Shown piece by piece: positions 31,988 to 37,056 of a stretch of DNA of 64,000 bases. This DNA is from Corallococcus macrosporus DSM 14697 (lineage in GTDB: Bacteria; Myxococcota; Myxococcia; Myxococcales; Myxococcaceae). The stretch is taken from the NCBI RefSeq assembly GCF_002305895.1, contig NZ_CP022203.1, forward strand, positions 8,156,001 through 8,220,000, read 5' to 3'. The notes beneath the pieces are model-generated. The model saw only the letters and a list, made by a program, of their open reading frames with translations, ran no database searches and was not told the DNA's origin. The position numbers and the translations under genes were made by a program. Positions within the stretch are counted from its first letter, which is position 1. Each line of letters opens with the position of its first letter.

Positions 31988-32011
31988 GCTCTCCGGGCCG
32001 AGGAGGTGCTG

Positions 32012-33052
32012 TTGCGAATCGAAACGCTCTCAACGGATGAGCTGCGAGGCGCCAGGCTCGCGGACGTCGTGGCGATGCTGGTCGCTCGGAATCCCGACGC
32101 CTTCAATGCGCGGCTCGCAGGTACCGACGCAGAAGGCTTGGCGGCGCTGCGGCGTGGCTTTGAAGCCGCCTTCGGATGGGCGCCTCCCGCCGAGTTCGAT
32201 GACTGGCTCGCCATCGAGGCAGCCTTGGGCATCGACGCGGGCGAAGAGGACTACTGGGGCGCTGGCGACCGCTCCCTCCTTCTGGACTTCTTCAACCCAG
32301 AGTCCCACCAAGCCACTGAAGCGCTCGCGTCTGGCGCCTTCCTCGCCCAGAACGCGGAGGGACTCCTCGCGGGACTCTTTCCATTGAGCGAGGATGCGTC
32401 GGGGGACCGCGCACTCGCCAGCCTCCTGCCGGACTCCTTGGGACTGCTCCGAGTACACAGCTTTCGCCATGAACGCGGGGACCTCGGCGAAGCGCAGTGC
32501 CTCAAGTCGTTCGTCGTCAACCAATGGAGTTCCGAAGACGCCTCTGAAGCAGGCTCGCCCCCCGGTGATGTCGGACTCGTCCGCTACGAATATCTGATGG
32601 AACTCACCGCCATGCTCGACATGGCGATGGCTACGGAGCGCCAAGCACAACCGTCCCTCGAACTTCCGGACAGTGCGCAGCTCTACCTTCGATCACGCTG
32701 GCTCATGCGGATGGTGTGGGGGCAGCCGTCAGAGCTTCTATCGGAGCTTCTTGCGCAAGCACCTGGACTCTCCGAATGGGATGCGGAGCGCACCTTGTGG
32801 CGTAGGCATCCCGTACTGACGAACTACTGGATGGTGGCCCACTCCTTCCTTGGGAACGACTCAGCGTGCGCAGAGACCGTCGCCGTGGGACTCCAAGCAT
32901 CTGGGCTCCTGACCCGGCGCCTTGCAGAGCACATCCGGCAGTTGCTCGCCGCTCCTGAGGATACCCACCTCGGAAGATTGGAACCCGCGACGTTCAAGGA
33001 GCTTCGGCGCATCACACGTGCCTCGGCCCGGAGTGACCAACTTTCCGTTTGA
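32012..33052 (+). CDS. Hypothetical protein with atypical composition
   Basis: A 346-residue soluble, mostly helical, acidic protein with no motif I recognise. The start is TTG at 32012, chosen because AGGAGG stands five bases before it; a GTG six bases earlier overlaps that site. Codon use is less G/C-heavy in the third position than in neighbours, with many A and T endings. This suggests a more recent arrival or weak expression. It follows the DAC-like gene by 24 bases but shares no visible theme with it, and traA starts about 255 bases downstream. Confidence 0.7.
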   Translation: MRIETLSTDELRGARLADVVAMLVARNPDAFNARLAGTDAEGLAALRRGFEAAFGWAPPAEFDDWLAIEAALGIDAGEEDYWGAGDRSLLLDFFNPESHQATEALASGAFLAQNAEGLLAGLFPLSEDASGDRALASLLPDSLGLLRVHSFRHERGDLGEAQCLKSFVVNQWSSEDASEAGSPPGDVGLVRYEYLMELTAMLDMAMATERQAQPSLELPDSAQLYLRSRWLMRMVWGQPSELLSELLAQAPGLSEWDAERTLWRRHPVLTNYWMVAHSFLGNDSACAETVAVGLQASGLLTRRLAEHIRQLLAAPEDTHLGRLEPATFKELRRITRASARSDQLSV

Positions 33053-33260: not shown

Positions 33261-33289
33261 TTGCGGGAATTGCGGTTGTGGACGATATC
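33261..33289 (+). promoter_or_regulatory. traA: Possible traA promoter
   Basis: TTGCGG (33261-33266), a 17-base spacer and GATATC (33284-33289). The -10 matches only three of six consensus bases, so the call is weak. If right, transcription starts near 33297 and traA translation must begin at or after 33308. Confidence 0.3.
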
Positions 33290-33307
33290 CCTCATTCTAG
33301 AGGGGCT

Positions 33308-35425
33308 TTGAAATCGCCCGTGTCCCGCATCGCGCGTACCGCGCTCACTGTCCTGGCGGTGTGCCTCGCGGCCTCGACCGCCTGGGGCCAGAAGCTGCCC
33401 GATGTCGTCATCCAAGGCCCTCCTATCGCTGATCCCCTCACCGGTGATGGGCAGGGCCTGTGCGTGGCGTCCAATGTATGGACGCGCCCCTTGAATGAAT
33501 TCCCGCAGTCACGCGGGACATACATCGACATCATCAACGGGTACCTTGAGGAACCGGCCAACAGGCAGAGCCGTGTCACCACGGTGCTTCAGACTCCGTT
33601 CGACCTTTCGAACAACCTTAACGACGGTCGCACACTGAGCTACGGCGACTTCGTCAACCAGGTCGTGGAACCGGGCTGCTCCGCAGGTGGCTGCACCTTC
33701 AACGTCATCCAAAATAACAACGGACGCACCACCGCCTTCACGTCCCGGTTCCGAGGATACATCAACATTACCGCGGACTTGGTGGGGCGGCCCATTCACT
33801 TTGGCCTCTATGCGGATGACGGAGTCAGCTTCGTCATCTACGACCGCAGCCAAGCATATCAGGTCATCAACCGACCTCCGCTGATTGGCTTCGCGACATG
33901 GCGTACAACGAACAACGTCACATTCCCCCAGCCGGGCCTCTACGCAGTGGAAATCCTCTACGCCCAAATCGGAGAGCATGCCGCGCTGGAGCTGTCTATG
34001 CGGACAAGCCCCTTCGACGACTTCGAACGCCCAGCGAACGAGCCTGAAGTCGTCAATCTTTTCGACGAGGGCTTCCAACTCCTCCGCCCCGCACAGTTCT
34101 TCCAGACGGAGAACGGCCTCCTCTCAGTCCCAGACCAGCCCGACCGCTGCGAGCAGTGCAACCGCGGCAACGCGAACGCTCCCGGTAATGGAGGCTGTGC
34201 TCCTTCCTTCCGCTGCAACGCGGCGGCGCTCTGCGCCCCCTGCAACTCCTCGTTCTTCTGCGGCGACTCCTGCTCCCCGTGCGGCGAGTCCACGCCTCAC
34301 TGCGCGAACCTCAACGGCCGCACCCAGTGCGTTCAGTGTGTCGAAGATGGCCAGTGCCCCAATGGCCGCTGCGACCTCGAGACCAACACGTGCACCGGTT
34401 GCAACGAGGACACCGACTGCCCCACCGGCGCTTGCGACCTCGAGACGAACACCTGCGTCGAGTGCAACGACGACAGCCAGTGCAGCAACGGCGAGGTCTG
34501 CGCCACCGACCTCCACGAGTGCCGCGAGTGCACGCAGGACTCCCACTGCCCACAGGGCGAGTCCTGCTCCAACAACACGTGCTCGCCGTGCGGCACCAAC
34601 GATTCGTGCGCGGGCAACTCCTGCAACTGCTGTCCCAACGGCACGCAGTGCGCGGCGCTGACGCCCGGCGCCCAGCCAACGTGCGTGGAGTGCACCACCA
34701 GCAGCCAGTGCGCCGAAGGCCAGCAGTGCGACACCACCAACGGCCGCTGCGTGGACAGCGTGCCCTCCTGCAACACGGCCGACAGCTGCGGCCCCGGCTG
34801 CGTGAAGTGCCCCGGCGAGCGCCCCTACTGCCTCGACGGCGAGGTCTGCGTCCAGTGCCGCAACGACCTGGAATGTGGTGACGGCGAGTTCTGCCTCAGC
34901 GGCGAGTGCGCCTCGTGCACCACGGACAAGCACTGCGGCCCTCGCTGTGGCGCCTGCGGCGGCGACACCCCATTCTGCCTCTCCAACGGCACCGTGCAGG
35001 GCAGCACCTGTGTCGGCTGTGTCGACGACTCAGACTGCGGCAGCGGCGTGTGCGACCCCACCACGCGCACCTGTGAGAACAGCGGCGCCTGCGCGGTGAC
35101 GTGCGAGCCGGGCACCGTCTGCAACGGCACCGCCTGCGTCGAATGCTTCGCCGATGCCCACTGCCCCTGCGGTGGCACCTGCGACGTCGCGACGAACTCC
35201 TGCACCACGTCCTGCACCGACAGCGGAGACTGCCTGGGCGTGGAGCACTGCTCCGCGAAAACACTGGAGTGCGAGCGCGGACGCCGCAAGCCGGGCACGG
35301 AGCCCCAGGGCGGCGCCTTCTGCTGCGGCACCACCGCCGAAGCCACGCCCGCCGGAAGCGCTGGCTTCCTGGCCCTCCTCACCGTGGGCTTCGTGCTCCT
35401 CCGCACCCGGCGCACCGCCCGATGA
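33308..35425 (+). CDS. traA: Outer membrane exchange receptor TraA
   Basis: Polymorphic cell-surface receptor that lets myxobacteria recognise kin and fuse outer membranes to swap lipoproteins and lipids. 705 residues from the TTG at 33308 (MKSPVSRIARTALTV; GTG starts at 33278 and 33320 are also possible). A signal peptide is followed by a PA14-like variable domain (about 50-275) containing the lectin-like GRPIHFGLYADDGVSFVIYD strand. A Cys-rich stalk of tandem units (about 280-660) has many CVECNDDSQCSNGEVC-type repeats. The tail FCCGTT, a hydrophobic helix and RTRRTAR form a MYXO-CTERM-like sorting signal. The stop overlaps traB by four bases. The variable domain is visibly less G/C-rich. 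Confidence 0.9.
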   Translation: MKSPVSRIARTALTVLAVCLAASTAWGQKLPDVVIQGPPIADPLTGDGQGLCVASNVWTRPLNEFPQSRGTYIDIINGYLEEPANRQSRVTTVLQTPFDLSNNLNDGRTLSYGDFVNQVVEPGCSAGGCTFNVIQNNNGRTTAFTSRFRGYINITADLVGRPIHFGLYADDGVSFVIYDRSQAYQVINRPPLIGFATWRTTNNVTFPQPGLYAVEILYAQIGEHAALELSMRTSPFDDFERPANEPEVVNLFDEGFQLLRPAQFFQTENGLLSVPDQPDRCEQCNRGNANAPGNGGCAPSFRCNAAALCAPCNSSFFCGDSCSPCGESTPHCANLNGRTQCVQCVEDGQCPNGRCDLETNTCTGCNEDTDCPTGACDLETNTCVECNDDSQCSNGEVCATDLHECRECTQDSHCPQGESCSNNTCSPCGTNDSCAGNSCNCCPNGTQCAALTPGAQPTCVECTTSSQCAEGQQCDTTNGRCVDSVPSCNTADSCGPGCVKCPGERPYCLDGEVCVQCRNDLECGDGEFCLSGECASCTTDKHCGPRCGACGGDTPFCLSNGTVQGSTCVGCVDDSDCGSGVCDPTTRTCENSGACAVTCEPGTVCNGTACVECFADAHCPCGGTCDVATNSCTTSCTDSGDCLGVEHCSAKTLECERGRRKPGTEPQGGAFCCGTTAEATPAGSAGFLALLTVGFVLLRTRRTAR

Positions 35426-37056
35426 AGCCCTCGCACCTGTTCCTCCTCGTGGCGCTGGGGTTGTCCACCGCCGCCACCGCGCAGCCGGATGCGCGCTTCA
35501 ACGTGCAGCTCTTCCGCCCGTCCGGCGCGCCCCAGGATCTGGTGGTGGTGCAGCAGTCGCGTCCGCTGTCGCACCTGTCCGTCTCCGTCGGCCCGTACTT
35601 CAGCTACTCGCTCAACCCCCTGTCGCTGATTCCCGAGGGGGGCGACCTGAGCAAGATCAGCCTGGTCGGCAACCGCCTCCAGTTGGACGTCATGGCCACC
35701 GTCGGCCTCTTCGACTGGGCCGAAGTCGGCGTGGACATGCCGCTCATCCTCGCCCAGGGCGGCGACAACCTGGAGGTCATCGGCACCGAGGGGAGCGTGG
35801 AGAGCTTCGTCTTCGGCGACCTCCGGCTCACCGGCAAGGTGGCCATCCCCGGCCTGCGCCGTCCCGCCGAGGGCAAGGGCTGGGGCGGCGCGGTGACGCT
35901 CAACGTGAGCTTCCCCACCGGCGCCCAGGAGGCCTTCGCCGGGGACGGCGAGCTGACCTGGGCCCCGGGCCTGGTGCTGGACTACCGCTTCGAGAACGGC
36001 ATCCTCCTGGCGCTCAATGGCGGCTTCTGGAAGCGCCCGGACCGCGTCTTCAGCGGCGTGTCCGTGGGCGACATGGCGCCCTTCGGCGTGGGCGCGGAGG
36101 TCCCCATCCTGCGTGGCAGCGGACTCACCGCCGTGGGCATGGTGCATGGCGCGGTGGGCCTGACGAAGCAGCCCGATGAGCCCCGGCAGATTCCCGCGGA
36201 GGCGCTCTTCGGCCTGCGCTGGTACAGCTCCACCGGCCTCAACTTCACGTTCGGCGGTGGCATGGGCTGCGGCTGCTCCATCGCCTCGCCCACGCTGAGC
36301 TTCTTCACGTCCATCCTGTGGATTCCAGCGAAGACACGCGAGTGGGAGGCCCTGGAGCGCTTCAAGGAGCCGCCCCAGCCGCTGCCGCCCCCGCCGCCGC
36401 CCGTCGACCCGGATGGCGACGGCGTCATCGGCGAATCCGACGCGTGCCCCGACGTGCCCGGCCCCGTGGCCAACATGGGCTGCCCGGACACCGACAAGGA
36501 CGGTGACGGCGTCGTCGACCGGCTCGACCGCTGCCCGGACCAGCCCGCGGGCAGCCGCGGCAAGGATGGATGCCCGCTCGCCCGCCGCGACGGCAACCGG
36601 ATTGTCATCCTGGAGCAGCTCAACTTCGCCACCGACCAGGACATCATCCTCTCCGAGTCCTTCCCCATCCTGGAGGAGGTCGCCCGGGTGATGAACGAGA
36701 ACCCGGAAATCGACCGGATGCACGTGGAGGGTCACACCGACTCGCGCGCGACCGATGCGTACAACCTGGACCTGTCGCGCCGCCGCGCCTCCAGCGTCAT
36801 GCGCTTCCTGGTGGAGAGTGGCGTGGCCGCCGAGCGCCTGTGCTCGCAGGGCTTTGGCCGCTCGCGGCCGGTGGCGGACAACGCAACGGAAGAGGGCATG
36901 GCGCTCAACCGCCGCGTCGACTTCACCATCCAGCCGCCCAGCGACGGCCCCCGCCCACCCTGCCCCGAGGACGCGGGCGCGAAGAAGCGCAAGCGCCCCA
37001 TCAAGAAGGCGCCCAAGGCGAAGTCGAAGGCCCCCGCCTCGGCGCCCAAGCCGTAG
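35422..37056 (+). CDS. traB: Outer membrane exchange protein TraB (OmpA family)
   Basis: Required with TraA for outer membrane exchange in Myxococcus. 544 residues from the ATG that overlaps the traA stop (ATGA). A signal peptide (LFLLVALGLSTAATAQ) is followed by a beta-barrel-like region (about 25-310, alternating strands such as LSVSVGPYFSYSLNPLSL). A Pro-rich hinge and two calcium-binding thrombospondin-3-type repeats follow (DPDGDGVIGESDACPD and DTDKDGDGVVDRLDRCPD). Last comes an OmpA peptidoglycan-binding domain (about 395-505; HVEGHTDSRATDAYNLDLSR with Asp and Arg for the peptide stem). The tail is Lys/Pro-rich. It converges on the BIG2 lipoprotein gene. Confidence 0.92.
   Translation: MKPSHLFLLVALGLSTAATAQPDARFNVQLFRPSGAPQDLVVVQQSRPLSHLSVSVGPYFSYSLNPLSLIPEGGDLSKISLVGNRLQLDVMATVGLFDWAEVGVDMPLILAQGGDNLEVIGTEGSVESFVFGDLRLTGKVAIPGLRRPAEGKGWGGAVTLNVSFPTGAQEAFAGDGELTWAPGLVLDYRFENGILLALNGGFWKRPDRVFSGVSVGDMAPFGVGAEVPILRGSGLTAVGMVHGAVGLTKQPDEPRQIPAEALFGLRWYSSTGLNFTFGGGMGCGCSIASPTLSFFTSILWIPAKTREWEALERFKEPPQPLPPPPPPVDPDGDGVIGESDACPDVPGPVANMGCPDTDKDGDGVVDRLDRCPDQPAGSRGKDGCPLARRDGNRIVILEQLNFATDQDIILSESFPILEEVARVMNENPEIDRMHVEGHTDSRATDAYNLDLSRRRASSVMRFLVESGVAAERLCSQGFGRSRPVADNATEEGMALNRRVDFTIQPPSDGPRPPCPEDAGAKKRKRPIKKAPKAKSKAPASAPKP

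Follow-up and report, generated by a model that had tools for sequence, protein, structure and literature searches.

TraA and TraB underlie kin recognition and the swapping of outer-membrane material in social soil bacteria, and TraA is among the best-understood bacterial kin-recognition (greenbeard) receptors. It has been described as a receptor that is fluid on the cell surface and clusters with its own kind between cells, and whose variable domain (VD) gives specificity; TraB is required without setting specificity, and exchange of outer membrane content ensues (PMC3820747, PMC6626042, PMC6372800). Two alleles count as compatible when their VDs are at least 90% identical, differ by no indel and agree in residue 205 (PMC6372800), a rule that is a heuristic built on few tested pairs. 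Among the recognition groups defined so far (A-J), groups B-F show no indels relative to one another, group A has five relative to B-F, and groups G-J belong to other genera and carry several (PMC13184517). The closest described systems are that of Myxococcus xanthus DK1622 (MXAN_6895 and the downstream traB), a group A strain whose VD accordingly bears the five indels, and that of M. fulvus HW-1, which belongs to group F, has P205 (PMC13184517) and whose genome gives a 93.5% alignment to that of DSM 14697 (PMC5629066). The system is already known, its genes are covered by NCBI models of the same names, and the locus described here leaves knowledge of the system unchanged. In addition, the 2019 survey includes M. 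macrosporus alleles (prefix Mxm; PMC6372800).

The window, i.e., the whole 64,000-nucleotide stretch of DSM 14697 that was analyzed, contains a gene pair which agrees with the DK1622 system in domain order, gene overlap, the SCNCCP motif, the MYXO-CTERM tag and the TraB antigen peptides; all features given below lie on the + strand. The traA gene (33278-35425, 715 aa from a GTG at 33278, or 705 aa from the alternative TTG at 33308) encodes the outer membrane exchange receptor and matches the exchanger_TraA model NF033759 over its full length (1163.1 bits against a cut-off of 750, profile positions 1-666 of 666), an alignment that spans both the PA14-like and the Cys-rich parts. The N-terminal subfamily model TIGR04566 is matched with 320.6 bits (cut-off 80). 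A putative signal peptide (MKSPVSRIARTALTVLAVCLAASTAWG, 33308-33388, with limits set by inspection of the sequence) is followed by the VD and by a Cys-rich region (34148-35272, limits also by inspection) in which eight stretches match the TIGR04201 repeat. After residue 275 there are 73 cysteines, versus the 71 published for DK1622 after its PA14 domain. Within this region, the SCNCCP motif of repeat C5 (34619-34636), reported as invariant and part of an essential repeat (PMC6372800), is kept in all 55 alleles compared. The protein ends in a MYXO-CTERM sorting tag composed of FCCG, a transmembrane helix and an Arg-rich tail (35312-35413), the last 48 residues scoring 21.2 bits with TIGR03901, just over the cut-off of 20.

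The stop codon of traA and the start codon of traB (35422-37056, 544 aa) overlap by four bases as ATGA, and an overlapping NTGA junction is found in each of the 54 alleles in which it is readable (50 ATG, 3 GTG and 1 TTG starts). TraB matches its own model, NF033763, with 1027.5 bits (cut-off 700), and carries an OmpA-family peptidoglycan-binding domain (36625-36912; PF00691, 1.3e-18), preceded by a possible thrombospondin type 3 repeat (36481-36546; PF02412 at 2.1e-4, which is below the cut-off of that model). Two published antigen peptides of DK1622 TraB occur letter for letter in the DSM 14697 protein, and gene order and neighbors around traAB are conserved among relatives. The curated family-specific models, the architecture, the operon overlap and the conserved neighborhood support the assignment of the pair as TraA-TraB. 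This is what the preliminary description had proposed from a signal peptide, a PA14-like domain, Cys-rich repeats, a MYXO-CTERM-like tail and an overlapping OmpA-family gene, all of which are present, the signal peptide by inspection.

Since close relatives carry a similar paralog with the same domain order (PMC3325183), the gene could in principle be such a paralog (MXAN_4924 type, annotated without a function) and not TraA proper. However, those paralogs are about 500 aa long, cover the NF033759 profile only up to position 350 and score 400-464 bits, below the cut-off, whereas the DSM 14697 protein has 715 aa, scores 1163 bits, is followed directly 3' by traB and is encoded by the single traA copy of the genome. 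Given the full-length TraA match and the adjacent traB, the paralog identity was rejected, and we consider its chance to be close to nil.

The position of residues in published work bears on the start codon. The landmarks reported for DK1622 TraA are D183, D184, P227 and E237 (PMC3325183), and in L023, an allele whose VD resembles that of DK1622, they fall at 173, 174, 217 and 227 when counted from the homolog of the TTG, exactly 10 lower in every case, so that published numbering begins at the homolog of GTG 33278. The numbering of these four residues, and that of residue 205 in HW-1, therefore fits a start at GTG 33278, 10 codons upstream of TTG 33308. In the cell, either candidate may be used, and the TTG from which the gene had been read in the preliminary description is a possible start.

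The VD (33470-34093, residues 55-262 from the TTG) is the recognition domain and the most variable part of the alignment. By sequence, no PA14 domain was detected in it in Pfam, even at an E-value of 10, nor among PDB sequences. An AlphaFold2 model of TraA residues 30-285 (pLDDT 85.6, pTM 0.87) matches PA14 carbohydrate-binding domains with Z up to 14.7 (Foldseek E 1.7e-6), as well as yeast flocculins and epithelial adhesins (Flo5/Flo1, Epa) with Z about 12, all matches lying at Z about 11-15. The PA14 fold of the VD is thus shown in the predicted model and is visible by structure only. The likeness to the yeast Flo1/Flo5 and bacterial PA14 adhesin domains is one of fold (Z 12-15), at an identity of 10-15%, and TraA has been published as a homotypic binder, not as a demonstrated lectin.

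For residue 205, the A/P column of the motif GF(A/P)TWRTT was taken as the A/P205 switch, as in four Myxococcus alleles without VD indels it falls at exactly 205 when counted from the GTG homolog. In DSM 14697 this column is an Ala codon at 33893-33895 (HW-1 numbering 205; residue 206 from the GTG and 196 from the TTG), located in a loop of the model that precedes a strand. According to published work, the A/P205 difference alters a loop (PMC6372800). Another candidate column, that of GLY(A/P)VE (residue 213 from the TTG), was rejected, as it corresponds to P227 of DK1622. The second particularity of the domain is a one-residue insertion (NGRTT versus DA-FT; codon 33725-33727, the exact codon depending on the alignment), placed in or beside a low-confidence loop of the model, 105-110. 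The insertion column is gapped in 53 of the 54 other alleles, the extra residue being shared with one distant Hyalangium allele only.

The VD was compared with 54 other distinct alleles of the family, sampled as one genome per species, a set made up of alleles other than the named A-J and those of conspecific strains. All 54 fail the compatibility rule against the DSM 14697 VD. The nearest VD is that of M. xanthus AM003 (L003), at 78.7% identity, with one gap and with Pro instead of Ala at residue 205. M. vastator AM301 (L002), although it has the nearest C-terminal part (89.6%), reaches only 68.6% in the VD, also with one indel. Alleles that look like group A, a tentative assignment, are 53-54% identical to the DSM 14697 VD with 17 gap columns. 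HW-1, for which the comparison relies on its published description, has the same operon but differs in having P205 versus Ala and in belonging to the set without indels versus one extra residue in DSM 14697. With respect to VD identity, indels and residue 205, the TraA of DSM 14697 is predicted to form its own recognition group, which gives backing, as a prediction, to the earlier suggestion that it may do so.

It could be argued that traAB is genuine but that its VD falls in an already defined group carried by another strain. Groups B-F consist of Myxococcus alleles, and with a sampling of one genome per species, a near-identical VD might exist in other strains of M. macrosporus or M. xanthus. 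However, the DSM 14697 VD is one residue longer than the Myxococcus alleles without indels, and B-F have no indels among them; HW-1, of group F, has Pro at the switch position; group A is set apart by its five indels and G-J, from other genera, by several. Because of this distribution of indels and genera, membership in groups A-J is unlikely, and we regard a VD of an already defined group as quite improbable. A more far-reaching reading, to which we assign a probability of roughly 0.6, places the TraA type of DSM 14697 outside A-J and the strain in social isolation from HW-1, with which it is nearly conspecific, because of an old VD that was retained or passed between species as the remainder of traAB tracked the species tree. 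DSM 14697 and HW-1 are a closely related, clean and testable pair, between which membrane exchange is predicted to fail.

The history of the domain is reflected in its composition and in its divergence. The GC content at third codon positions (GC3) reaches 0.945 in traB and 0.902 in the Cys-rich part but falls to 0.740 in the VD, for which a value of 0.930 would be expected with matched amino acids. Within the window, 3% of the 208-codon stretches of genes have a GC3 that low, a figure obtained with a mechanically picked gene set that leaves out most of traA. The lower GC3 noted in the preliminary description was thus recovered (0.74 versus 0.90), but its use there as a sign of a fast-changing or swapped segment did not hold for a recent swap in DSM 14697: 54 of the 55 alleles have a lower GC3 in the VD than in their Cys-rich part, the drop ranging from 0.01 to 0.25, and the low GC3 is therefore a standing property of the domain. 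For the persistence of the drop across genera, no explanation was found.

At the level of divergence, Ks relative to M. vastator and M. xanthus AM003 is about 1.1 in the VD and 0.37-0.39 in the Cys-rich part (0.37 for M. vastator), and DNA identity is 70-84% over about 33400-34200 and roughly 85-96% in the flanks. The VD tree rejects a clade of DSM 14697 with M. vastator (p-AU 0.003). The tree of the rest of TraA groups these two, with a modest support of 81. In these columns the VD grouping is rejected in turn (p-AU 0.019), by a topology test that was chosen after the VD tree was known but run on columns other than those of the VD. The same conflict between trees, together with the Ks against M. 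vastator of 1.1 in the VD and 0.37 in the Cys-rich part, would also be produced if the VD had been imported recently from another lineage, displacing the resident one. Nevertheless, no donor-like allele was sampled, the closest VD being at most 78.7% identical, the low GC3, being shared by nearly all alleles, does not single out an imported segment, and the same tree pattern is expected from old alleles retained for a long time. A recent import is therefore a possibility that we find unlikely, although a less remote one than a VD of an already defined group. The tree conflict and the raised Ks support an old VD allele, for which both exchange and long retention fit the sequence data. Horizontal transfer of VDs was inferred already in the 2019 survey (PMC6372800), and the DSM 14697 allele illustrates a divergence of the VD only, attributed in the field to selection and exchange.

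Taken at the level of function, the locus is very probably a complete and ordinary M. macrosporus traAB operon, working as TraAB of M. xanthus does, with a VD that most likely recognizes itself and near-identical alleles only; we infer the mechanism by homology with M. xanthus and the recognition group by the published sequence rule. The signal peptide would direct the secretion of TraA and the MYXO-CTERM tag its sorting to the cell surface, where the Cys-rich stalk would present the PA14-fold VD for binding to an identical TraA on a neighboring cell. TraB, located in the outer membrane and equipped with a wall-binding domain of the OmpA family, would assist in the formation of the TraA adhesin, and the outer membranes would then swap lipids and proteins. 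Partner choice would be set by the sequence of the VD, in which the DSM 14697 allele appears to stand apart from the experimentally defined groups.

Some observations concern the surroundings of the operon and the genomes compared. Short TraA paralogs (L075-L086) are present in 12 relatives and absent from the genomes of DSM 14697 and M. vastator (G074). A clean empty site for the paralog was not found in DSM 14697, the DNA around the copy of one relative (G077) matching scattered places only. Directly upstream of traA, and in DSM 14697 only, there is an open reading frame at 32006-33052 (+, 348 aa, GC3 0.72), whose product has no family match and whose homologs, at 41-53% identity, are scattered across six other genomes. 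It was considered as a member of the traAB system and rejected, as it is missing at that place in close relatives. The same spacer contains a glycosyltransferase-like gene in AM003 and M. vastator, with an additional endonuclease-like frame in M. vastator (both identified by eye), and is empty in two further relatives (G077 and G076). It looks like a variable insertion site. Finally, a Myxococcus traAB locus with Myxococcus flanks is found on BNCN01000005.1 (L004), a contig in a public record under the name Comamonas sp. KCTC 72670, where at least this contig, and perhaps the whole assembly, is mislabeled.
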